A stretch of DNA of 64,000 nucleotides, taken from Pseudanabaena sp. Chao 1811. GTDB lineage: Bacteria; Cyanobacteriota; Cyanobacteriia; Pseudanabaenales; Pseudanabaenaceae. Under the pieces are notes generated by a model. The model searched no databases. It saw nothing but the letters and a program-made list of their open reading frames with translations, and was not told the DNA's origin. Where the stretch lies: assembly GCF_027942295.1 (NCBI RefSeq), contig NZ_CP101416.1, positions 1,612,001-1,676,000 of the forward strand, in the 5' to 3' direction. This document shows positions 4,999 through 53,515 of this stretch, in pieces; the stretch's first letter is position 1; every line of letters starts with the position of its first letter. Position numbers and translations under genes: made by a program.

Positions 4999-5066
4999 GA
5001 ATTAACTCTAAGCAGAAACTAGAAACTATTAGTAAAAAATCGCGATCTGAGTTTCTGTTAAGTATT

Positions 5067-5165
5067 ACGTGAGTTCGATAATGCCATTTGCGCAGCGCAA
5101 ATGGCGGAAAATGGTAAAAATCGCTAAGCGATTTTTACCATTTTCCGCTTTCGGTGAACTGACGT
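5067..5165. repeat. MITE-like repeat, family I, copy A
   Basis: About 99 bp bounded by ACGTGAGTTCG on the left and, inverted on the right, ACGTCAGTTC. Inside are two palindromes: 5083-5105, and 5104-5148 with 22-bp arms and a one-base centre. The same termini and two-hairpin architecture recur at 41371-41514 and 45637-45783. Confidence 0.6.
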
Positions 5166-5169
5166 GATG

Positions 5170-6459
5170 TTACGGGGAAGTTTCTAAAGTAGGGGTGGGT
5201 TTTACATATAGATCTTGTTTTAGCCCAGAATTATCAACTAAACCCGATCCTACTTCAGGTGGGAGATCTACAGTTTCTGTACAGGGTAGATCGATCATAA
5301 AGCAACTACCAACTCCAATTTGGCTAGTTACTCCCACATCACCACCATGTAGTTCGACTATGCGTTTTACAAAAGTAAGCCCTAAACCGATTCCTTCATA
5401 TTGACGATTAAGATCGCAATCAAGCTGCCTAAAAGATTGAAATAGCTTGTCAATATCCTCAGGAGCGATCCCAATCCCTGTATCAGTGATTTCAAAACGA
5501 AGATAAGTTTTTTGCCCCTTCCATTCTTGCTTCAAAATTGGAAATTTCACCGTTAAAGAAATGCTACCGCCTTGAGGTGTAAACTTGACTGCATTTTTCA
5601 ATAAGTTGATTAATGCTTGGCTGAACCGTCTCTTATCTACCCTGATGTCAGGCAAGTTGATTGGCAATTCATTGAGCAGTTGAATTCCTTTTTTCTGGGC
5701 TTGTTCTTGAATCAAAGCTAAACTAGCTTGGCAAAGTTGGTCAACACTGACGTTACTATAATCCAGATTGATTTGACCTGATTCAATTTTAGCAACATCT
5801 AGAATATCCGTAATCAAAGATAGTAAATGAGAAGCACTACTTTCTACAATTTGTAAAGCTTTAATTTGTTGTTCATTCATCCCTCCAAAAATTTCATCTT
5901 GCAATCCTTCAGTAATTCCTAAAATAGCATTGAGCGGTGTACGCAGTTCATGACTCATATTTGCTAGAAAGTAACTTTTGGCAACATTTGCCCTCTCAGC
6001 TTCTTCCTTTGCCTCCTTCAAAGAAACAATCTGAGCAGCAACTTCCTGTTCTAAATGTTGAGTGAGCTTATTTAGTTGCAAATGAGTTCTAATTCTTGCC
6101 AGTACTTCACGAGCTTGGAATGGTTTAGTCACATAATCCAATGCCCCTAGATCAAACCCCTTCATTTTGCTCTCTAAATCTGTTAAAGCAGTCATAAAGA
6201 TGATCGGAATGTGACAAGTTTGCGGATCTGCCTTCAAGTTTTGACAAACGCTAAAACCATTCATATCAGGCATTTGGATGTCTAACAAAATTAGATCGGG
6301 TAATATCCGCGATATTTGCAATAATGCACGTTCTCCACTAGTTGCGATCGCCACTTCATAGCCCTCTGCACTCAGCGTTTCCGAAAGCACATCGAGATTA
6401 GCAGGTACATCATCGACAATGAGAATTAGACTAGATGATTTATGCAGTTGGTCAGACAT
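5170..6459 (-). CDS. hybrid response regulator-histidine kinase
   Basis: 429 residues. The N-terminal receiver domain (about 10-125) has the acidic pair D16-D17, phosphoacceptor Asp60 in [13 protein letters not shown], and the KPF lysine. A short coiled coil follows. The HisKA box has His170 in [14 protein letters not shown]. The C-terminal HATPase_c has N box [11 protein letters not shown] and G boxes [10 protein letters not shown] and GIGLGLTFV. No membrane segment, so cytoplasmic. It starts 33 nt after the preceding transmembrane hybrid kinase, and the two are probably co-transcribed members of one phosphorelay. The input signal is unknown. Confidence 0.9.
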
Positions 6460-13710: not shown

Positions 13711-16700
13711 ATGATGCCCCATCGCAAGAAATCATCTAAACTCGCCCACTTTTTTCTTTTGCCTTTTTCTCTTTGCCTTGTTGGTGGTGTGGCGATGAGT
13801 GAGGTGGTGCTGGCGCAAACAGCAGAGGAGCGCAAGGCAGAAGAAGATCGAGTCTTAAAGTCATGTCGCGATAATTTGGATGCTCAAAAGTTTCAGGAAG
13901 CATTATTGGCTTGTCAGGGGGCGTTAGAGGATTTCAAGAAAACTGATAACTTGAGGGGGCAGGGGCTTTCACTTAATAACATTGGTGTTAACTATAAAGC
14001 TCTCGAGCAGTATCAAAAAGCGATTGATAATTTTCAACAATCTCTAAAAATCGTAAGAGAAGTTAAAGATCAACGAATTGAAAGATTAGTTGTCGGCAAT
14101 CTGGCAAATAGCTACGAAAAGCTGGGCAATTATGACAAAGTGATTGAGTATCGGTTGCGCGGATTGGAGATGGTAAGGGAAGTTAAGGATCTCAATGGAG
14201 AGGCGGATTCACTCTATAATCTTGGGAATACATACCGTGACCTCAAACAGTATCAAAAAGCGATTGAGTACTACCAACAATCTTTGGTCATTGTGAAGCA
14301 GCTAGGCAATAAGAAGGCTGAGCAAAATGTTAATTTCATCATTGGGATTAGTTACATTTTATTAGAGGATGCTGTTAAAGGTCGAGAGTTTTTGTTGACG
14401 ACGCAAGAGTTAGCGAAGAAGATTGGAGATCGCGATACAGAAACAAAGGTGACTAATTTACTGAATGAAATTAGCAAACATGTATCGTCATCTTCAAATA
14501 GTCGTCGCAAAGCAGAGGCAGATCGACTGTTAAAGCAAGGAATTCAGCAATGTCAAACTGGACAGTGCGAGGCAGCATTACAGTCATGGCAGCAAACATT
14601 GACAATCTATCAAGAAATCAAAAATCGTCAAGGTGAGGGAAAGGCGCTGGGAAATCTGGGAGTTGCTTACTATAGTCTCGGCAAGTACGACAAAGCGATC
14701 GAGTTCCAATTGCAAAGCTTAGAGATTGCGCGGGAAATCAAAGACCGTCAAGGTGAGGGAGCATCGCTGGGAAATCTGGGAAATGTTTACAATGCCCTCG
14801 GCAACTATGACAAAGCGATCAAGTTCCAAATGCAAAGATTAGCGATCGCGCGCGAAGTCAAAGACCGTCTCGGTGAGGGACAGTCACTGGGAAATCTGGG
14901 AAACGCTTACGATTCCCTCGGCAAATATGACAAAGCGATCGAGTTCCATCTCCAAAGCTTAGCGATCACACGGGAAATCAAAGACCTTAGTGGTGAGGGA
15001 AGGGCGCTGGCAAATCTGGGAAATGCTTACAATCTCCTCAGTAAATATGACAAAGCAATTGAGTTCTACTTGCAAAGCTTAGCGATCGCACGGGAACTCA
15101 AAGATCGTCTTGGTGAGGGCGCATCGCTGGGAAATCTGGGAATCGCTTACTCTTCCCTTGGCAAATATGACAAGGCGATTGAGTACCATCTGCAAAGCTT
15201 AGCGATCGCGCGGGAACTCAAAGATCGTCTTGGTGAGGGCGCATCGCTGGGAAATCTGGGAATCGCTTACTCTTCCCTTGGCAAATATGACAAGGCGATC
15301 GAATATAAACTACAAAGATTAGAGATCTCACGGGAAATCAAAGACCGTCAAGGTGAGGGAGGGGCGCTGGTAAATCTGGCAAATGATTACGATTCCCTTG
15401 GCAAATATGACAAAGCGATTGAGTCTTATCTACAAGCTTTAGCAATCTTACGGGAAATCAAATACCGTCAAGGTGAGGGAGCAGCACTAAAAGGACTAGG
15501 AAACACTTACCAAAATCTCGGCAAGTCTGACAAAGCGATCAAGTTCCATCTACAAAGTTTAGCAATTGATCGGGAAATCAAAAACCGTCGAGGTGAGGGA
15601 AGTTCACTCGGAAATTTGGGAAATGCTTACTATTCCCTTAGCAAATATGACAAAGCAATCGAGTATCACTTACAACACCTAGCGATCGCGCGGGAAATCA
15701 AAGACCGTCGCGGTGAGGAAACAGCGCTGGGCAATCTGGGACTCGCATACCAGTTCCTCGGCAAATATGACAAAGCGATAGACTCACAACTGCAAAGCTT
15801 AGAAATCGCGCGAGAAATCAAAGACCGTCGCGGTGAGGGAAGATCGCTGAGTAATCTGGGAATCGCTTACAGTTCTCTTGGCAAATATGATAAAGCAATC
15901 GAGTTTTATCTGCAAAGCTTAGAAATAAAGCGGGAAATTAAAGACCGTCAAGGCGAGGGAATATCACTGGGTAATCTGGGAATCGCATACCAGTTCCTCG
16001 GCAAATATGACAAAGCGATTGAGTATTTGGATCAAGTATTAACGATCACACGGGAAATCAAAGACCGTCTCGCTGAGGGAGCATCACTTGGCAATTTGGG
16101 AAATGCTTACTATTCCCTCGGCAAATATGATAAAGCGATCGAGTACCAACTGCAAAGCTTAGAAATCACAAGGGAAATTAAAGACCGTAACGGTGAAGGA
16201 AAGGCACTAAATAATTTAGCTGAGGTTTACGAAAAACTAAATCGAGATCGAGAAGCGATGATTTCTTTTAGGCAAGCCTTGTCTATCGCTAGAGAGATTA
16301 GCGACAGAAGTAGCGAAGGCTTATCTCTTGGAAATCTAGGGGATATATCATCCAAAGTAAAACAACCCGAACTCGCAATCCTCTTTTACAAACAATCGAT
16401 CAACGTCCGCGAAGCGATCCGCAAAGACATTAGAAAACTCGATAAAGACATCCAACAATCTTACTTAGCCACAGTCGAAAAGACCTATCGCAACCTCGCC
16501 GATCTCCTCCTCCAACAAAACCGCATCATCGAAGCCCTCCAAGTCCTCGACCTCCTCAAAGTCCAAGAACTCGAAGACTACCTCAAAAACATCAAAGGTA
16601 GCGACAGATCCGCACAGGGAGTCAGACTATTAGCACCAGAACTATCTCTTAGCGATAAGCTGTTAGCTGTTAGCTTTGAGAATGCTCCAGAACTCAATCG

Positions 16701-17772
16701 ACAACTCGCCAATCAAATCCAACAACTTCCCAAAACCGAAATCAACAAAGTTCCCGACTACCTCAACCAAATTCCACAGGGAACCGTATTACTCTATCCA
16801 TTCATTTTAGGCGATCGCCTCGAAATCATCCTCTTTGCCCCCAACAATCTCCCCATCCGCCGCACCACCAAAATCTCCAAAGACCAACTAGAAACCTTAA
16901 TTGTTGATTTTAGGACAGGACTCCTTGATCCTAGCTCCGAAGACTTCAGAGAGCCATCACTACAACTCTATAACCTCCTGATTAAACCCATTGAAGCCGA
17001 ACTCGTTCAATTCAACGCCAAAACGATCCTCTATGCACCTGATGGACAGCTACGCTACATCCCCATCGCCGCACTCTATGACGGTAAACAATTGTTAGTT
17101 GAGAAATACCAGATTAGTAACCTCATCGCCTATACCCTCTCCGACTTTACACCACAACCTAAAAACGCACCCAACATCCTCGCAGGAGCCTTTGGTGGTA
17201 AAGCAGGCGATCGCAAATTTGGACAAACAGCCTTACCCGCAACCGTTAGAGAAGTCCAAGCGATCTCAAATTCATTTCAAAACTCAGTCACCCTCATCGA
17301 AGATCAATTTAGTCGCAAAGCCATTGAATCGAAGTTCAAAAACCATAATATTCTCCACCTAGCCACCCATGCCGAATTTAATGTTGGCTCTCCCGATCAG
17401 TCCTTCATCATCTTTGGTAACGGCGACAAAATCCGCCTCAATGAAATCACCGATTGGCAGATTCCCAATATCGATTTGATTATCTTGAGTGCCTGTCAGA
17501 CGGGAGTAGGAAAACTCGGCAGTGGCGTAGAAATCTTAGGCTTTGGCTATCAAGTCCAAAAAGCAGGCGCAAAACAAGCGATCGCTTCTCTTTGGTCTGT
17601 CAATGATGATGGGACTCAAGCTTTGATGGCAGCTTTTTATCGGGAACTGCAAAAAGGCGATGTCACAGCGATTGAGGCTTTGCATAGAGCACAAGTTACC
17701 TTGATTAAATCAGATAAGTTTAATCATCCGAATTACTGGTCAGCATTTTTTGCGATCGGTAATGGCTTGTAA
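13711..17772 (+). CDS. exported TPR-CHAT protein 1 (putative caspase-like peptidase)
   Basis: 1353 residues. The signal peptide has a basic start (HRKKSSK), a hydrophobic core and a likely cut after VVLA, before QTAEER. A long tetratricopeptide array covers about residues 40-890; 13 units between 14641 and 16200 are exactly 40 codons (consensus LGNLGNAYxSLGKYDKAIEF) and nearly identical. A linker (LDLLKVQELEDYLKN, GTVLLYPF) leads to the C-terminal CHAT domain with the predicted catalytic His1220 (HLATHAEF) and Cys1262 (LSACQTG). CHAT domains are separase/caspase-like cysteine peptidases. Exported forms are common in filamentous cyanobacteria, but their substrates are not established. It heads a run of three paralogues. 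Confidence 0.85.
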   Translation: MMPHRKKSSKLAHFFLLPFSLCLVGGVAMSEVVLAQTAEERKAEEDRVLKSCRDNLDAQKFQEALLACQGALEDFKKTDNLRGQGLSLNNIGVNYKALEQYQKAIDNFQQSLKIVREVKDQRIERLVVGNLANSYEKLGNYDKVIEYRLRGLEMVREVKDLNGEADSLYNLGNTYRDLKQYQKAIEYYQQSLVIVKQLGNKKAEQNVNFIIGISYILLEDAVKGREFLLTTQELAKKIGDRDTETKVTNLLNEISKHVSSSSNSRRKAEADRLLKQGIQQCQTGQCEAALQSWQQTLTIYQEIKNRQGEGKALGNLGVAYYSLGKYDKAIEFQLQSLEIAREIKDRQGEGASLGNLGNVYNALGNYDKAIKFQMQRLAIAREVKDRLGEGQSLGNLGNAYDSLGKYDKAIEFHLQSLAITREIKDLSGEGRALANLGNAYNLLSKYDKAIEFYLQSLAIARELKDRLGEGASLGNLGIAYSSLGKYDKAIEYHLQSLAIARELKDRLGEGASLGNLGIAYSSLGKYDKAIEYKLQRLEISREIKDRQGEGGALVNLANDYDSLGKYDKAIESYLQALAILREIKYRQGEGAALKGLGNTYQNLGKSDKAIKFHLQSLAIDREIKNRRGEGSSLGNLGNAYYSLSKYDKAIEYHLQHLAIAREIKDRRGEETALGNLGLAYQFLGKYDKAIDSQLQSLEIAREIKDRRGEGRSLSNLGIAYSSLGKYDKAIEFYLQSLEIKREIKDRQGEGISLGNLGIAYQFLGKYDKAIEYLDQVLTITREIKDRLAEGASLGNLGNAYYSLGKYDKAIEYQLQSLEITREIKDRNGEGKALNNLAEVYEKLNRDREAMISFRQALSIAREISDRSSEGLSLGNLGDISSKVKQPELAILFYKQSINVREAIRKDIRKLDKDIQQSYLATVEKTYRNLADLLLQQNRIIEALQVLDLLKVQELEDYLKNIKGSDRSAQGVRLLAPELSLSDKLLAVSFENAPELNRQLANQIQQLPKTEINKVPDYLNQIPQGTVLLYPFILGDRLEIILFAPNNLPIRRTTKISKDQLETLIVDFRTGLLDPSSEDFREPSLQLYNLLIKPIEAELVQFNAKTILYAPDGQLRYIPIAALYDGKQLLVEKYQISNLIAYTLSDFTPQPKNAPNILAGAFGGKAGDRKFGQTALPATVREVQAISNSFQNSVTLIEDQFSRKAIESKFKNHNILHLATHAEFNVGSPDQSFIIFGNGDKIRLNEITDWQIPNIDLIILSACQTGVGKLGSGVEILGFGYQVQKAGAKQAIASLWSVNDDGTQALMAAFYRELQKGDVTAIEALHRAQVTLIKSDKFNHPNYWSAFFAIGNGL
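14641..16200 (+). repeat. 13 tandem 120-bp TPR-coding repeats
   Basis: The coding repeat has an exact 120-nt period with no indels across 13 units, each carrying GGCAAATATGACAAAGCGAT-like sequence. Segments 15091-15179 and 15211-15299 are identical over 89 nt, indicating very recent unit duplication or gene conversion. Confidence 0.9.
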
Positions 17773-17795
17773 GTATAAGTAGCTCAACTTAATTA

Positions 17796-17860
17796 AACCC
17801 AAAAACTAGAAGTTTGTTCCGCCCGCGTAGCGGGCGGAACAAACTTCTAGTTTTTGGGTT
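17796..17860. terminator. 31-bp perfect hairpin after CHAT gene 1
   Basis: Arms 17796-17826 and 17830-17860 are perfectly complementary with loop GTA. The core is CCGCCCGC-GTA-GCGGGCGG and the outer arms run AACCCAAAAACTAG and its complement. It lies 23 nt past the first CHAT gene and presumably terminates it. Confidence 0.8.
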
Positions 17861-17939
17861 ACTACTGAATACGGAACAAAATTGCAATTTTTCAGACTAT
17901 TTTGAACGTAAAAGCATCTGGTGCTAAACAGAAATTTGT

Positions 17940-18935
17940 ATGAACTACCCAAAGATCATCGCGGCAAGTTTAGTAGCTTTAGTTCAAGCCTGTAGCACAA
18001 CTTCCACCAAGGCTCTAGACAATACCCCAATATTGCAGGAATCGATCACAGGATCTGGGAGTAAAGCTCAAGTTGCGCCTAATTCTGCTCAGAATCCAAT
18101 TAATGGAAGTTCTGCCCAAAAGATCAATACTACACAGCAAAATGCTGAATTTGAGCAACAGAGCAATGCACCTCTACCTGCCTCCTGTGCAAAAGAGGAA
18201 TACAAGAGTTTCTTTGAGCAGTTTGTGCGTGGCAAAGATGATCAGGGTAATGAGATTCGCTATACCTTTACATCGCCCTATGTGCAAGTTAGAGATTATC
18301 AAGATCCTAGTAAGCTTTTGGAGATGATGAGTAGGAAGAATGATGAATTTAGTATTTCTCTCAGAGATTACACTTGGGTACAGCTAGTTCCGTCTCAAGT
18401 TGACAATGCTCCCTATACACGTTTGAAGTTAGACATTCAGCGAGTGAATGATAAAACCTTTCGCGTGGATTACATCAAGGCGCAATACGCAGGAGCGCAT
18501 GAAAAGGAACGGCTAGTGCGAACCTATGGAGAACCCAATGCTTATATTTTTGAACATCGCAATGGTTGCTGGAATCTCACCCAAAAATTGCAATCAACTA
18601 ATCGATCGCCAAATGATAATGCTCCGACAAGTAGCAAAGCGGCGATCGCATCCCAACTAACGCAACAAATGCCCTATGGCGATTTACGGAATATTTTACT
18701 GAAGAATGGTTGGCAACCTGTAGTTACGCCAGATTGCAAAATCAACGTTGGTGGCAAAGCGGAAGTCTGCGATCAACTCCCTGAAGTCGAGGCATGTAGT
18801 GGCGATGGATATTGTCTAATGAATTTTGCGAATCAAAGTGATGGCTCAAAGCTGACGGTTACAACCTATGGCGACTATCGCGATTGGCGCACCACAGGTC
18901 AAGAGTCGAAATTGCGGGTGACACGTTGGCAATAA
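17940..18935 (+). CDS. putative lipoprotein of unknown function
   Basis: 331 residues. The N-terminus MNYPKIIAASLVALVQAC is a short lipoprotein signal with the lipobox cysteine at residue 18; Gln at -2 is unusual. A Ser/Thr/Asn/Gln-rich linker (to about 80) follows, then two globular parts: about 85-215 (YKSFFEQFVRGKD, RYTFTSPYVQVRDY, WNLTQKLQ) and about 230-330 (MPYGDLRNILLKNGWQPV), with cysteines that may pair. No family recognised. It sits between two exported CHAT genes on the same strand, which suggests but does not prove a common envelope role. Confidence 0.65.
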   Translation: MNYPKIIAASLVALVQACSTTSTKALDNTPILQESITGSGSKAQVAPNSAQNPINGSSAQKINTTQQNAEFEQQSNAPLPASCAKEEYKSFFEQFVRGKDDQGNEIRYTFTSPYVQVRDYQDPSKLLEMMSRKNDEFSISLRDYTWVQLVPSQVDNAPYTRLKLDIQRVNDKTFRVDYIKAQYAGAHEKERLVRTYGEPNAYIFEHRNGCWNLTQKLQSTNRSPNDNAPTSSKAAIASQLTQQMPYGDLRNILLKNGWQPVVTPDCKINVGGKAEVCDQLPEVEACSGDGYCLMNFANQSDGSKLTVTTYGDYRDWRTTGQESKLRVTRWQ

Positions 18936-18939
18936 CAGA

Positions 18940-18976
18940 AGTTAATTTCCCCGCCAAAGGCAGGGAAACTAACCAA
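18940..18976. other. imperfect hairpin before CHAT gene 2
   Basis: GTTAATTTCCCCGCC and GGCAGGGAAACTAAC pair imperfectly around AAA just after the lipoprotein stop. A probable weak terminator separating the lipoprotein gene from CHAT gene 2. Confidence 0.45.
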
Positions 18977-19065
18977 ACGCTATAGATGGCATTGAAGATC
19001 GAAAAAAATTCGGGTATCGTTTATTGAGACTGCGAAAAAGCATTTTACTAATCAGGTTTAAGGCT

Positions 19066-21714
19066 ATGAATCAAGGTTTGGGTATCGCCATTGCAGTATT
19101 GCTAGTTAGCTTACCTGTGCAGGGTGTGATCAGCGAGGCAACAATGGCTCAAGCAGCACCAGAAGACCGCAAAGTAAATGCAGATCAATTGCTTAATTTA
19201 GGTCGTCAAAAATATCAAGCTGGTCAGTTTGAGTCAGCCTTACAGGTATGGCAACAAGCCTTGGCAGTCTATCGAGCAATTAAGGATCGTCAGGGAGAAG
19301 GAAAGTCGCTAGATAATCTGGGAAAGGCTTACGAGTCGCTTGGTAAATATGATGAGGCGATCGCATCGCATACAAAGAGTTTAGAAATTGCGAAAGAGCT
19401 TGGAGAGCGTCGCAGCGAAGCAGAATCGCTAATCAATCTAGGTGTGGTCTATCGCTCTCGTGGTAACTATGCTCAAGCGATCGCATACCATGAACAGGGT
19501 TTAGCCATTGCCCGTGAAATTGCCGATCGCCGTGCGGAAGGCTCAGCCTTGGGCAATTTGGGCATGAATTACTATGCTCAGGGCAACTATCCGAAAGCGA
19601 TCGATTACCACGAACAGCGTTTAGTGATTGCCCGCGAAATCAAGGATCGACAAGGCGAAGGCAATGCAATGGGCAATCTTGGCAATGCCTACCGCGCTCA
19701 GGGCAAATTTGCGAAAGCCATTGAATATCAAGAAAAGCGTTTAGCCATTACTCGCGAACTCAAGGAAGTACGCGGCGAAGGACAGGCTCTCGGTTTCCTC
19801 GGACTAGTTTATCGTTCCCTTGGCGACTATCCCAAATCCGTCGAATATTACCAGCAGAGCTTAGCGATCGCGACCAAGATTAATGATCGACTAGGCAAAG
19901 CCAAGTCTCTGGGGTACTTGGGTAATGTGTATTACGATCTAGGGGACTATCCAGAGGCAATTAAATATCACCTATCCAGCTTAAAAGCTGCTCAGGAAAT
20001 TAAAGATCGGCGAGGGGAAGGAAAGTCCTTAGGATATTTAGGCAACGCTTATGAAGCTCAAGGGAAATATGATGACGCGATTAAATACTACAATTCCAGT
20101 TTAAAAATTGCCCGTGAAGTTAAAGATATCCGTGGAGCAGGAAAGACATTAAGCTCCTTAGGAAGTGCTTACTATCATCTGGGAGACTATAACCAAGCGA
20201 TTACCAATCATCGATCAGGATTAGAAATTGCGCGTAGTATTAAAAATCGTGATGGCGAGAGAATTGCTCTTAGTAATCTTGGTTTGACTTTCCAAAAATT
20301 AGATCAACCTGATTTAGCGATTGTTTTCTATAAGCAGTCAGTCAATGTCAGTGAATCCATCCGCCAAGATATTCGTAAATTAGATCGCGATTTACAGAAT
20401 TCCTATTTAAGTAATATTGAAGGTTCCTATCGCCGCCTTGCGGATTTATTGCTGAAGCAGGGTCGCGTGATGGAAGCGCTCCAAATTCTCGATTTGCTCA
20501 AGGTGCAAGAACTTGAAGACTATCTCAAAAATGTTAAAGGTAGCGATCGCTCGGCGCAGGGAGTGAGACTATTAGCACCAGAGAAGGCGATTAGCGATAA
20601 GCTATCATCAGTGAGCTTTGACAATAGCAAGGAAATCAATAGCCAACTTGCCAATCAGATCCAGAAACTTCCTAAATCAGAAATCAATAAAGTTCCTGAC
20701 TATTTGCAACAAATCCCACAGGGAACAGTCCTTGTTTATCCCCTAATTTTAAGCGATCGCCTTGAGATTATTCTCTTCTCACCAAATTCGCTACCCATTA
20801 GCCGCACTGTCCAAGTCTCAAAAGAACAGCTTGAATCTCTAGTTAGCGAATTTAGGGCAGGACTGAGAGACAGTTCTTCAGAAGACTATAAAGAACCTGC
20901 GATCGCTCTTTATAAAATCTTGATTAAACCCATCGAAGCTGAACTCACACAGGTGAAAGCTCAGACCATTCTCTATGCGCCCGATGGAACTCTGCGCTAT
21001 ATCCCGCTTGCGGCTCTCTATGATGGTCAAAAATGGATGGCGCAAAGGTATCAAATTAGCAATCTGATTGCCTATAGCCTCTCCGACTTTTCATCCAAGT
21101 CCAAAATCATGCCGAATATCCTTGCAGGAGCCTTTGGCGGTAAGGCAAGTGAGAAGAAGTTTGGACAGCAAGCCTTACCTGCAACGATTAAAGAAGTACA
21201 GGCGATCGCCAATACCTTCCAAAATTCCGTTGCCCTCATCGAAGACGAGTTTAGCCGCCAAGCTACGGAAGCTAAATTTAAGGACTATAATGTGCTGCAC
21301 TTTGCGACCCATGCCGAGTTTAACCAAGGTGTGCCAGACAACTCCTTTATCATTTTTGGCAATGGTGACAAAATTGGTTTAAGTGAAATCGCGGCTTGGC
21401 AGATTCCCCATGTGGAATTGATTGTACTCAGCGCTTGTCAAACTGGAGAGGGCAAGTTGGGAAGTGGCGTAGAGATATTAGGCTTTGGTTATCAAGTGCA
21501 GAAAGCAGGCGCAAAAACCGCGATCGCTTCTCTCTGGTCTGTCGATGATGTGGCAACACAGGTACTGATGAAGTCTTTTTATCAAGAATTTCAAAAGGGT
21601 AATGTCTCTACGACGGAAGCTCTAAATAAGGCACAAATTTCCTTAATTCGTTCATCAGAGTTTAATCACCCTATATACTGGTCAGCATTTTTTGCGATCG
21701 GCAATGGACTGTAG
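19066..21714 (+). CDS. exported TPR-CHAT protein 2
   Basis: The frame opens with a TTG at 19024; ATG 19066 gives a clean signal peptide (MNQGLGIAIAVLLVSLPVQG, cut expected near TMAQA) and 882 residues. About ten TPR units of 40 residues follow, with consensus LGNxYxxxGxYxxAIxYxxxSL, more diverged from one another than in paralogue 1. The C-terminal CHAT domain has His749 (HFATHAEF) and Cys791 (LSACQTG), with the same 42-residue spacing as the neighbours. The linker (LDLLKVQELEDYLKNVKGSD) is nearly identical to that of paralogue 1. Predicted periplasmic cysteine peptidase or scaffold; target unknown. Confidence 0.83.
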   Translation: MNQGLGIAIAVLLVSLPVQGVISEATMAQAAPEDRKVNADQLLNLGRQKYQAGQFESALQVWQQALAVYRAIKDRQGEGKSLDNLGKAYESLGKYDEAIASHTKSLEIAKELGERRSEAESLINLGVVYRSRGNYAQAIAYHEQGLAIAREIADRRAEGSALGNLGMNYYAQGNYPKAIDYHEQRLVIAREIKDRQGEGNAMGNLGNAYRAQGKFAKAIEYQEKRLAITRELKEVRGEGQALGFLGLVYRSLGDYPKSVEYYQQSLAIATKINDRLGKAKSLGYLGNVYYDLGDYPEAIKYHLSSLKAAQEIKDRRGEGKSLGYLGNAYEAQGKYDDAIKYYNSSLKIAREVKDIRGAGKTLSSLGSAYYHLGDYNQAITNHRSGLEIARSIKNRDGERIALSNLGLTFQKLDQPDLAIVFYKQSVNVSESIRQDIRKLDRDLQNSYLSNIEGSYRRLADLLLKQGRVMEALQILDLLKVQELEDYLKNVKGSDRSAQGVRLLAPEKAISDKLSSVSFDNSKEINSQLANQIQKLPKSEINKVPDYLQQIPQGTVLVYPLILSDRLEIILFSPNSLPISRTVQVSKEQLESLVSEFRAGLRDSSSEDYKEPAIALYKILIKPIEAELTQVKAQTILYAPDGTLRYIPLAALYDGQKWMAQRYQISNLIAYSLSDFSSKSKIMPNILAGAFGGKASEKKFGQQALPATIKEVQAIANTFQNSVALIEDEFSRQATEAKFKDYNVLHFATHAEFNQGVPDNSFIIFGNGDKIGLSEIAAWQIPHVELIVLSACQTGEGKLGSGVEILGFGYQVQKAGAKTAIASLWSVDDVATQVLMKSFYQEFQKGNVSTTEALNKAQISLIRSSEFNHPIYWSAFFAIGNGL

Positions 21715-21747
21715 AGATAAAGAATTGTAGTTACTACGAGGTGAGGT

Positions 21748-24700
21748 ATGCGTGGAAGTTTGGCGATCGCACTTTTGACCGTCTTATGTTGTGGGCAAGT
21801 GCAACTAGTCGTATCCGATGCTGCGCGATCGCAATCTATCCAAGATCGTAAAGCAGAAGCCGAACGGCTTTACCAAAAAGGAAATCAGCAATATCAAGCT
21901 AATAAATATCAGGAAGCATTACAAGCTTGGGAGCAATCTTTACAAATTTATCGCGAGATTAAAGACCGCAAGGGTGAAGGTAACTCATTGAATAGTCTAG
22001 GGAAGGCTTATGACGCACTTGAAGATTACCCAAAAGCGATCAAGTTCTATGAGCAGTCCTTGGTAATCTTGAGAGAGCTTAAGGTCATAGATCCCCTTGA
22101 TGAGAGTACAACACTTTTTCGCATAGGATATGCTCACTCAATTCTAAATCAATTCGAGAAAGCAACGATATTTTATGAACAAGCTTTAGCCATCAGGGCA
22201 AAAATCAGCGATCTCCCTCACGCCTACTTGAGAGAAGTTATCGGTGAACTTGTGCTTATTTATGCTGATTTAGGACAATATCCAAAAATAATCTCAGTTT
22301 ATGAGCAAGAATTAGCGATCGTGCGGCAGAGAAAGCTTCTGACGGAACAAGTAAGAGTAGTCTATAATCTCGCCCAAGCTTATCAATTTTCTAGAGACTA
22401 TGAACGTTCCATTAAGATGTATCAGCAAGCCTTGGTAATTGCGCGGGATCTGAAAGATCAGGAACAAGAACGTAACTTGTTAGATAATTTAGGTAACGTT
22501 TATCTGAAGGCAGGAAAATATGAGCTAGCAATCACAATTTTTCAGCAGGTGTTAGCCAGTTCAAGAATGTCTCCAGATCCTACTAGTCAAGCTGGAGCCA
22601 CAATCAGTCTAGGTGATGGCTATCGCAACTTGGGACAATACACACAGGCAATTAAGTTCTATCGACAAGGCTTAGATCTGTCTAGCAAACTGACAGATCG
22701 GATTGCTCAAGCAGGAATATTGGTTAAACTCGGTAACGCTTATCTGAAGTTAGGAAAATATGAACAAGCGATCGCGCTTTATCAGCAGTCTTTAGCGATC
22801 GCCCGCAGCATTGATCATCGAGATAGCGAAGGATTGCTTAGTAATATAGCTAGGGATCGACTTTACGATAGCTTGGGACAGGATGAAATCGCAATTCGTT
22901 TTTTTGCGCCACGATATTATGTGATTCTGCCAGAAATCCAAGCTCGGATGGCGGAAGGTATCGTACTCAGTAATTGGGGGCTAGCTTACGAAAGATTAGG
23001 TCAATTTGACAAAGCAATTGCCCTATATCAGCAAGAACTAGTAATTGCCCGCGAAATCAAAGATATAGCCCGTGAAGGAGCAGTACTCAGCAATCTCGGT
23101 AATGCCTATGACAGTTCCCAACAATTTGACAAGGCAATTGTCATGCATCAGCAAGCTTTGACGATAATGCAGAAAATCAAAGACAATGCTAATAAAGGTC
23201 GAGTACTGGTCAATTTGGCGAATACCTATCGCAATTTAGGTCAGAATGAGCAGGCGATTGAAATTTATCAACAAGCTTTAGCGATCGCCAGAGAAATTAA
23301 AAATCGCGATAGCGAAGGTACAGCACTCCGCAATCTGGGTATAGCTTATGTCAATCGTGGACAGCATCAGCAAGCGTTGGAGGCATATCAGCAAGCTGTA
23401 ACCATCGCTAGGGAAATCGGCGATCGCGACGGTGAAGGCACGGTACTTAGCAATTTGGGTAAATTACTGGCGATTAAACAACAACCTGAATTAGCTATTT
23501 TCTTTTACAAACAATCGATCAATGTCCGAGAGTCTATTCGCAAAGATATTCGTGGATTAAGCCAAGACGAACAGAAATCTTACCTATCTACGGTCGAAAA
23601 TTCCTATCGCGATCTTGCCGATCTCTTACTCAAACAAGGTCGCATTATGGAAGCCCTACAAGTTCTCGATCTTCTCAAAATCCAAGAACTTGAAGACTAT
23701 TTAAAAAATATTAAAGGCAGCGATCGCACATTACAAGAAGTAAGACTTTTAGAGCCAGAGAGAGCGTTTCGCGATCAGCAATTCGCGATTAGCTTTGAGC
23801 AAATACCTCATCTCAATCGCCAACTTGCTAATCAGATTCAGCAACTGCCGCAATCAGAGATCAACCAAGTCCCCACCTACCTCAACCAAATTCCCCAAGG
23901 GACAGTATTGCTTTATCCTTTGATTTTAAGCGATCGCCTCGAAATCATTCTTTTCTCTCCTAATACTTTCCCCATTAGCCGCACTGTCAAAATATCGCAA
24001 ACAGAACTAGAACCTCTAGTGACTGATTTTAGAACTGGACTACTTGATGCTGGCTCTGAAGATGTCAAAGAACCTGCGGCAAAACTTTACAACTTACTGA
24101 TTAAACCCATCGAATCTGAACTAGTTCTAGCGAAAACTACCACAATTCTTTATGCCCCCGATGGTATCTTGCGCTATATTCCCCTTGCGGCTCTCTATGA
24201 CGGCAAACAATGGCTAGCAGAGAAATGCCGCATTAATAATCTCATCGCTTACAGCCTCTTTGACTTTGCCCCAAAGCTAAACATTCAACCCAACATCCTC
24301 GCAGGAGCATTTGGCGGTAAAGCTGACGAGAAGAAATTTGGACAAATTGGCTTGCCTGCCACACTTAAAGAAGTGCAAGCGATCGCAAATTCCTTTAATA
24401 ACTCAGTTACTTTAATCGAGGATCAATTTAGCCGCCAAGCGATCGAGTCTAAATTCAAAAATCATAATATTCTCCATCTTGCTACCCATGCTGAGTTTAA
24501 TACGGGTACACCTGATAACTCTTTCATCATTTTTGGCAATGGCGACAAAATCCGTCTTAATGAAATCACTGATTGGCAGATTCCAAATATCGATTTGATT
24601 GTGTTGAGTGCTTGTCAGACTGGTGTTGGTACGCTCGGTGATGGGGTGGAAATCCTAGGCTTTGGTTATCAAGTCCAAAAGGCTGGAGCAAAAAATGCGA

Positions 24701-28462: not shown

Positions 28463-28570
28463 TAGCCGTAGCCAGTTATGTTAGGACAAAAACAAAAACC
28501 AGAAGAGAGTTGCGGCGCTTTGCGCCGCAACTCTCTTCTGGTTTTTATGTCTTAACTTACTTGGCTATAG
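28463..28570. repeat. MITE-like repeat, family II, copy 1
   Basis: Ends carry inverted ATAGCC / GGCTAT within longer similar termini (TAGCCAGTTATGTTA on the left; TAACTTACTTGGCTAT on the right). The interior is a perfect 25-bp hairpin, 28494-28546, with core GCGGCGC-TTT-GCGCCGC. The GAAGAGAGTTGCGGCGC arm sequence is shared with the hairpin at 51738-51790. Confidence 0.6.
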
Positions 28571-34731: not shown

Positions 34732-34847
34732 GACGGATACAGTCTGTTGAGGCTTAAAGTATCCAGAGAAATTTTTGAAAGTGCGGCTTCTCCGCACTTT
34801 CAAAAATTTCTCTGGGTTTCAATTCAGCGCTTTGCGCTGTATCCGTC
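34732..34847. repeat. MITE-like repeat, family III, copy 1
   Basis: 116 bp bounded by inverted GACGGATACAG (34732-34742) and CTGTATCCGTC (34837-34847). The interior has a perfect 24-bp hairpin (34763-34786 with 34792-34815, CCAGAGAAATTTTTGAAAG arm) and a second small hairpin CAGCGC-TTT-GCGCTG. The two hairpins and the spacer recur at 53432-53515. Confidence 0.65.
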
Positions 34848-41342: not shown

Positions 41343-41370
41343 ATCATTAAAAATCATAAAACATTAAAAA

Positions 41371-41514
41371 AACGTCAGTTCGGGTTAAGCTGGCAAATTT
41401 TAAATCCCAAAAGAAAAGTCTTGCTACGCAAGGTTTTTCTTTTGGGATTTGAGAGAGGGTTTGCTACGCAAACCCTCTCTCAAATCCCGTTTCAAATTAT
41501 CTCGAACTCAAGTT
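41371..41514. repeat. MITE-like repeat, family I, copy B
   Basis: 144 bp. Left end AACGTCAGTTCGGGTTAAGC, right end (inverted) AACTTGAGTTCGAGATAATT. Two internal hairpins: one with TCCCAAAAGAAAA arms and core CTTGC-TAC-GCAAG, and one with a perfect TTGAGAGAGGGTTTGC arm around TAC. It matches copy C at 45637-45783 in reverse orientation, including GCTGGCAAATTTTAAA near one end. Confidence 0.75.
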
Positions 41515-41543
41515 AAAAAAGGAGCGCTTTGCGCTCCTTTTTT
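41515..41543 (-). terminator. terminator of the 833-aa gene
   Basis: AAAAAAGGAGCGC (41515-41527), loop TTT, GCGCTCCTTTTTT (41531-41543). The minus-strand gene's stop codon (41542-41544) overlaps the arm. On the minus strand it ends in a T-tract. Confidence 0.8.
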
Positions 41544-45636: not shown

Positions 45637-45783
45637 AACGCGAGTTCGAGATAATTTGCAACGGGCTTTGAGAGAGGGTTTGCGTAGCAAATCCTCTCTC
45701 AAACACCAAAAGTAAAAGCCTTGCGTAGCAAGGCTTTTACTTTTGGTGTTTTAAAATTTGCCAGCTTAACCCGAACTGACGTT
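45637..45783. repeat. MITE-like repeat, family I, copy C
   Basis: 147 bp. Left end AACGCGAGTTCGAGATAATT, right end (inverted) AACGTCAGTTCGGGTTAAGC, the mirror of copy B. Internal hairpins: GAGAGAGGGTTTGC arm with core TTTGC-GTA-GCAAA (one mismatch), and a perfect 23-bp stem with AACACCAAAAGTAAAAGCC around GTA. Its right end overlaps the stop codon of the glycosyltransferase-like gene (45782-45784). Confidence 0.75.
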
Positions 45784-46666
45784 AGTTATTCAAACTGCGA
45801 TCGCTATTAAATGTAAGTAAGAATTTTTTGATCTTACGAAGGTTGTAAAGAACAGTTCTGTAAATAAACAGAAACCAGAACATAAATGTTCTTTTTATAA
45901 TATATTGACGAGAATTATTAGAGCAGGTATGTAAATTCTCAATTGTTGATGCCTCTGCACAGTAAAGCTTATAGCCTAAAATCAAGAACTCCTTATCTTG
46001 CCAATAGGATTCACCATATTGGTTCAGGGTATCATTGCGGACATCACTGCGATGCAAATGATGGGAAACAATGCTTAAACAAGGATTAGCAACAACTAGG
46101 CTTGCTTCCACTGCGCGTTGGGCAATCATCTGATCACAGCCTAAAATACCTAAGTGGTAGTTAGACTGAAATGAGCGCAGTGGAGTACGGAATACCCAGC
46201 AATCATGGGAACCAATATCAGCTTTTTCAGTTAATACCCATTGATTTTCCCCTTCCTCGTCATAGCGAGAAATTGTCCAAAAAGAATCGCTAGAAATATT
46301 GTTAGCTAAATCCAGTCGGCTATTTTCATCAAAATAGATATCTGCATTACAGATAGCAATTACTTGATCGTTTCCAAGCTGATTTGCGATCGCAAAAAAA
46401 TCAGAATAAAGTGGTCTTTGATCAATTTTAATGATTTCTAACTTCTCGTCCTTAATTTCATTGAGCAAATTTAGATCTGCTTCATTATGGTTGTTTTTTA
46501 CTTCCAATAAGACTTTAATCTGTTTGATGGATGGATTGGATAGATTAATCTGGAGACATCTAAGATATTCAGCAAATCTTTTACTCTGACAAGGAATGTG
46601 AAAAGTCGTAAATAGCGTAACCATAGTTAGATCTTCAGTAATTCTAGATTCCCAATTCTGCATCAA
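45782..46666 (-). CDS. glycosyltransferase-like protein (GT-A-type) of unknown specificity
   Basis: 294 residues as opened at ATG 46666, which overlaps the gltA stop (ATGA); a start at codon 15 (MVTLFTTFHIP) is also possible. GT-A-like features are VTLFTTFHIPCQSKRFAEYL at the N-terminus and a DXD-like acidic strand VIAICNADIYFDENSRL. Further on, GSHDCWVFRTPL and HLGILGCDQMIAQRAV resemble acceptor regions. A C-terminal hydrophobic/basic segment (about 252-285, FMFWFLFIYRTVLYNLRKIK) may bind membrane. The overlap with gltA suggests co-transcription, not function. Confidence 0.55.
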   Translation of the reverse strand: MMQNWESRITEDLTMVTLFTTFHIPCQSKRFAEYLRCLQINLSNPSIKQIKVLLEVKNNHNEADLNLLNEIKDEKLEIIKIDQRPLYSDFFAIANQLGNDQVIAICNADIYFDENSRLDLANNISSDSFWTISRYDEEGENQWVLTEKADIGSHDCWVFRTPLRSFQSNYHLGILGCDQMIAQRAVEASLVVANPCLSIVSHHLHRSDVRNDTLNQYGESYWQDKEFLILGYKLYCAEASTIENLHTCSNNSRQYIIKRTFMFWFLFIYRTVLYNLRKIKKFLLTFNSDRSLNN

Positions 46667-51724: not shown

Positions 51725-51790
51725 TAGCCAGTTATGTTAGCTAAAAAGCAGAAGAGAGTTGCGGCGCAACTCTCTTCTGCTTTTTAGCTA
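51725..51790. repeat. family II repeat, partial copy 3, acting as terminator
   Basis: Left flank TAGCCAGTTATGTTAG (51725-51740) is the family II end. The hairpin 51738-51762 with 51766-51790 has 25-bp perfect arms, loop GGC, with CAGAAGAGAGTTGC as in copy 1. The right arm contains the ABC permease stop (51784-51786). No right terminal repeat is seen. Confidence 0.65.
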
Positions 51791-53431: not shown

Positions 53432-53515
53432 CAGAGAAATTTTTGAAAGCGTGGCGAAGTCACACTTTCAAAAATTTCTCTGGTTTTTAATTCAGCGCAA
53501 CGCGCTGTATCTGTG
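53432..53515. repeat. MITE-like repeat, family III, copy 2
   Basis: CAGAGAAATTTTTGAAAGCG arm (53432 onward) pairs with its complement ending 53482 with one mismatch. It is followed by GTTTTTAATTCAGCGC-AAC-GCGCTGTATCTGT (53483-53515), matching family III copy 1 in both hairpins and spacer. The outer GACGGATACAG end is not preserved on the left. Confidence 0.65.

Follow-up and report, generated by a model that had tools for sequence, protein, structure and literature searches.

The window analyzed here is the 64,000-nucleotide stretch at positions 1612001-1676000 of the single-contig 4.73-Mb Pseudanabaena genome labeled G000. It holds three short repeats, copies A, B and C, with AGTTCG-type ends and an interior of two hairpins. 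They are listed below along with comparisons to G021, a relative whose DNA is ~95% identical to G000 around the window.

5066..5166, + strand: copy A, family A MITE, 101-bp form; terminal repeat TACGTGAGTTCG / CACGTCAGTTCA
5083..5105, no strand: copy A hairpin 1, GCCATTTGCG-CAG-CGCAAATGGC (folding)
5106..5146, no strand: copy A hairpin 2, stem of 19 bp, loop TAA (folding)
41365..41371, no strand: copy B left target duplication, TAAAAAA
41371..41514, + strand: copy B, family BC MITE, 144 bp; left end AACGTCAGTTCGGGTTAAGCTGG, right end AACTTGAGTTCGAGATAATTTG; site empty in G021
41404..41448, no strand: copy B hairpin 1, stem of 21 bp, loop TAC (folding)
41449..41483, no strand: copy B hairpin 2, stem of 16 bp, loop TAC (folding)
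41514..41520, no strand: copy B right target duplication, TAAAAAA
45632..45637, no strand: copy C left target duplication, TAGTTA
45637..45783, - strand: copy C, family BC MITE, 147 bp; orientation opposite to B; same site occupied in G021
45669..45701, no strand: copy C hairpin 2, 3-nt loop GTA versus TAC in the G021 orthologue, i.e. inverted
45702..45750, no strand: copy C hairpin 1, 23-bp stem; base ACACC/GGTGT versus AGCCC/GGGCT in G021, both arms changed together
45783..45788, no strand: copy C right target duplication, TAGTTA

Reading all three copies bears out the shared ends, the two hairpins and the common B and C sequences described in the first-pass annotation. The element it placed at 5067-5165 is also there, but its true span is 5066-5166, one base off at each end. 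GCTGGCAAATTTTAAA and GAGAGAGGGTTTGC are common to B and C in opposite orientation, and the window contains 6 occurrences of GTNAGTTCG where 1.2 are expected. The folding z-scores of the three copies range from -8 to -12 on either strand. On inspection of the flanks, no exact target duplication remains at copy A. Copy C adjoins a carbonic anhydrase gene. The open frame at 45782-46666 (- strand) has its stop codon at the junction with copy C, and the end of its protein seems to be set by the insertion.

Other repeats were noted in and near the window. Beside the copy C orthologue in G021 (locus L250, ~5605-5718) there is an extra insertion of ~110 bp with ends CTATAGCAATGTAAG and the hairpin GGCGGCAC-TTC-GTGCCGCC, which is missing at the matching G000 site and is probably another, unrelated MITE family. 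Elsewhere in the window, hairpin repeats form two pairs, 34764-34846 with 53432-53514 and 28494-28547 with 51738-51790, possibly further small repeat families. In the region 14000-23500, about three paralogous genes carry long arrays of directly oriented 120-bp coding repeats and look like genes for TPR-type proteins.

A genome-wide search shows that the shared ends are not a matter of chance at the three loci. The 21-base BC end motif CAGTTCGGGTTAAGCTGGCAA gives 81 matches with up to 3 mismatches in the 4.73-Mb genome, against 0 for the reversed control. Combining end-motif, full-length and right-end searches, family BC is found at ~88 places in G000, some of them degenerate, and family A, searched for with its own sequence, at 53 or more, a lower bound taken among the matches listed; together the two occupy ~141 places genome-wide. 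Intact BC copies are mostly exactly 147 bp, and intact A copies mostly 113 or 101 bp. BC is present in 21 of 22 same-genus relatives and in none of 15 genomes of other families. With a length of 101-147 bp, no coding capacity, 12-bp terminal repeats and ~88 plus at least 53 places in a single genome, the elements have the size and copy number of MITEs. For these comparisons, sequence was taken as stretches around the copies and the transposases.

The 12-bp terminal inverted repeat AACGTSAGTTCG is all that A and BC share. Since only this repeat of ~12 bp is in common and each type recurs genome-wide in a large family of its own, A and BC are, as judged from their sequences, two separate MITE families and not one. 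The complete difference of one hairpin arm between copies, pointed out earlier, is real for A versus B and C, but it arises because A belongs to another family with similar ends and not from a swapped arm. The notion of conserved ends with interchangeable palindromes within one family is thus abandoned, as each of the two families has its own genome-wide copies. The conserved part of family A is hairpin 2 (5106..5146 in copy A). One BC/A hybrid, with a BC left end joined to an A-type interior and right end, was found at G000:C1:83061-83178; its G021 counterpart (L424) is a full BC copy adjoining A-like remains. It should be mentioned that deletion forms of BC also occur (L306, L218 and G000:C1:140031-140134), which retain a single hairpin (104 bp) or lack both (64-66 bp); they keep both ends and have apparent target duplications.

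Exact direct repeats of 6-8 bp flank 68 of the 98 intact copies, compared to 0.3% of random positions. These target duplications are 92-94% A+T and nearly always of the form T...A. Their length is mostly 6 bp for BC and 7 bp for A, values that are ambiguous by about two because the element ends AAC...GTT share one base on each side with the repeat. Only 3 of the 98 copies overlap long open frames, versus 343 of 400 random positions. Empty sites were directly shown at two places, one in each direction. The site of copy B is empty in G021, with a single TAAAAAA versus two in G000, and the G021 copy L419 has an empty site in G000, where a single AGAGTT remains. About 12 BC copies could be paired by both flanks between G000 and G021, and most others are unmatched; the apparent pairs at 2269911 and 2192867 were left out because of mismatched flanks or duplications.

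Scanning the DDE_Tnp_1 transposase loci of G000 and G021 for the terminal repeat revealed ISa, an element of 1005 bp with two copies in G000 at about 1222098-1223102 and 4599632-4600636. ISa has an intact transposase and the perfect terminal repeats AACGTGAGTTCGACG, and one copy is flanked by the 8-bp duplication TGTAGTTA. A search of the genus with the ISa transposase located a second lineage, ISb, with ~52% protein identity to ISa and a length of 985-1008 bp, in three genomes of other species (G018, G011 and G020), with duplications TCAATTA, TAATCA and TAATTA. The full-length elements in the genus with MITE-like ends thus measure 985-1008 bp. They are recognized as IS982-family members by their length of ~1 kb, single gene, perfect ends of 12-15 bp and duplications of 6-8 bp, and the curated IS982 model NF033520 scores 257 bits for ISa and 264 bits for ISb (cut-off 130). 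The transposase with the same terminal repeat that the first-pass annotation suggested looking for therefore exists in two lineages. The ISb ends AGTTCGGGTTAAG and AGTTCGGGATAAG match the two distinct ends of BC, with 95% identity over 20 bp and 94% over 18 bp. In many family A copies the right end is AGTTCGACGAA, identical to one ISa end; the link between A and ISa consists of 13-17 terminal bases. Comparison of the MITE interiors to those of ISa and ISb found no convincing similarity, and no autonomous element lies closer than 3 kb to a MITE copy. When the genus was searched for terminal repeats whose subterminal bases differ from those of the MITEs, the hits were all solo ends or MITEs that had diverged or lost internal sequence.

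The reading of the repeats as non-autonomous elements is upheld by what is observed directly: the copy number, the target duplications, the occupied/empty polymorphism, and the ends held in common with full-length, autonomous IS982 elements. The elements are MITEs and, from the sequence evidence, most likely owe their movement to IS982-family transposases acting in trans. We consider it highly probable that these are MITE families with IS982-family ends, mobilized by an IS982 transposase. In the proposed mechanism, each MITE would consist of the terminal sequences of an IS982-family element, with two hairpins replacing the transposase gene. An IS982-family transposase would recognize the AACGTSAGTTCG ends and then mobilize the element, presumably acting in trans, with insertion into AT-rich intergenic DNA and duplication of a T...A target of 6-8 bp. 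Family A would be moved by ISa and BC by ISb. The stems would be kept complementary mainly by within-hairpin template switching during DNA replication, by which the 3-nt loops would also be inverted.

The assignment of a separate parent to each family has a competitor that we regard as possible, if doubtful, namely that in G000 the single transposase of ISa mobilizes both families via the common 12-bp end and ISb is unneeded. ISa is intact and occurs twice in G000, where ISb was not found, and all the elements have AACGTSAGTTCG in common. However, the asymmetric subterminal bases of BC (GGGTTAAG / GGGATAA) follow ISb and not ISa, and the predominance of 6-bp duplications for BC versus 7 bp for A hints at different transposases. 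G021, moreover, is rich in BC copies, yet has ISa as a fragment only. The transposase search found ISb in neither G000 nor G021, though BC is abundant in both, so that BC in these two genomes may now be an orphan or may rely on another IS982 transposase.

We have examined the BC hairpins in 69 ungapped copies from G000 and G021. Hairpin cells are 98.6% paired, and two-sided changes are found at 25 of 38 hairpin positions, far above the shuffled and slid controls. Covariation is likewise seen in the extended second hairpin. Either neighbor is a possible pairing partner of the middle segment GGGCTTT, which varies in step with both, and all three 4-base segments agree in 39 of the 69 copies. Among 17 comparable orthologous MITE hairpin loops of G000 and G021, 5 have 3-nt loops that are exact reverse complements, including hairpin 2 of the window copy C. 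The same is seen outside the MITEs. The G021 hairpins L427, L428 and L438, with stems of 10-19 bp, have AAA/TTT loops inverted relative to G000 (4110345, 4106032 and 4119535, respectively), and a terminator-like hairpin beside copy B is inverted in G020. These exact inversions between orthologues, together with the two-sided stem changes, lend inferential support to the earlier idea that the stems evolve by palindrome correction, and we infer that stem pairing is maintained by template switching rather than by selection on RNA.

Gene conversion between dispersed copies, or selection for RNA structure, could in principle produce the complementarity and the loop inversion in place of intra-hairpin switching. 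Conversion would have many donors to draw on, with loops in either orientation, and some orthologous copies differ along longer tracts, e.g. 3231582. We nevertheless consider this origin rather unlikely, although gene conversion may play a part in the MITE hairpins themselves: exact loop flips also occur in hairpins that are not part of MITEs, such as the one beside copy B, two-sided changes outnumber G-U intermediates in the BC stems, and RNA pairing is unaffected when a loop is inverted. Template switching may extend further. The hairpins of the genus could be self-correcting DNA palindromes, in which frequent template switching or hairpin inversion flips loops between ~95% identical relatives and a change in one arm of a stem is copied into its partner; to this broader proposal we give an even chance. 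If it is true, arm copying would reach even the base that the two MITE hairpins have in common, and stem covariation would arise without selection for RNA. Strong base-pair covariation, usually taken as proof of a functional RNA, is explicable here by a mechanism of DNA replication.

It is very improbable that the host has domesticated the repeats as structured RNA or DNA units that it retains for a function of its own (at transcript ends, in termination or as REP-like binding sites), with mobility a thing of the past: the folds are very stable on both strands, the copies are intergenic and stem covariation is strong, but sites are occupied or empty in both directions between ~95% identical relatives, target duplications are present, the ends are those of full-length IS982 elements, and the free inversion of loops, likewise in non-MITE hairpins, indicates that structure alone is no proof of function. 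REP/RAYT elements were ruled out, since the ends, duplications and parent are of the IS982 type. A known terminator or RNA family was also ruled out, as no Rfam model matched the window at its gathering score.

A literature survey, with subscription journals barely covered, found no publication naming both Pseudanabaena and miniature inverted-repeat elements. The repeats are best filed as an already known kind of element, with A and BC as new families. For an abundant cyanobacterial repeat, likely parents can now be named, a pair of sister IS982 lineages, each of which has a hairpin MITE of its own. Nezha is a small, high-copy, hairpin-forming non-autonomous element. Nezha of Anabaena/Nostoc and the MITEs of Microcystis NIES-843 are cyanobacterial MITEs cited in a review (PMC10969869). 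The Pseudanabaena elements resemble both in being small, high-copy, hairpin-forming, non-autonomous and cyanobacterial, but come from another host genus, and the likeness is by description and not by sequence.

IS982-derived MITEs are known from Cardinium, in which MITECca01/02 have ISCca4 as parent (PMC9769881). As in that system, the copies described here are numerous, derived from IS982 ends and mostly intergenic, with a parent still in the genome. In contrast, MITECca01 is ~240 bp long and belongs to an endosymbiont (PMC9769881), whereas the Pseudanabaena elements are 101-147 bp and spread across one cyanobacterial genus. The Pseudanabaena set also differs from MITECca01/02 in comprising two families with two sister IS982 parents and two long internal hairpins. 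These hairpins form a large natural set of replicates for dating loop inversion and arm correction between sister strains. Footprints of template switching, namely multi-base compensatory changes and loop inversions, have been described in organisms including bacteria (PMC8794818). In that study of RNA genes loop inversion is rare, with 69 cases in total, compared to the 5 of 17 MITE hairpins seen here between just two close relatives; loop flips between close relatives are unusually frequent for these hairpins.
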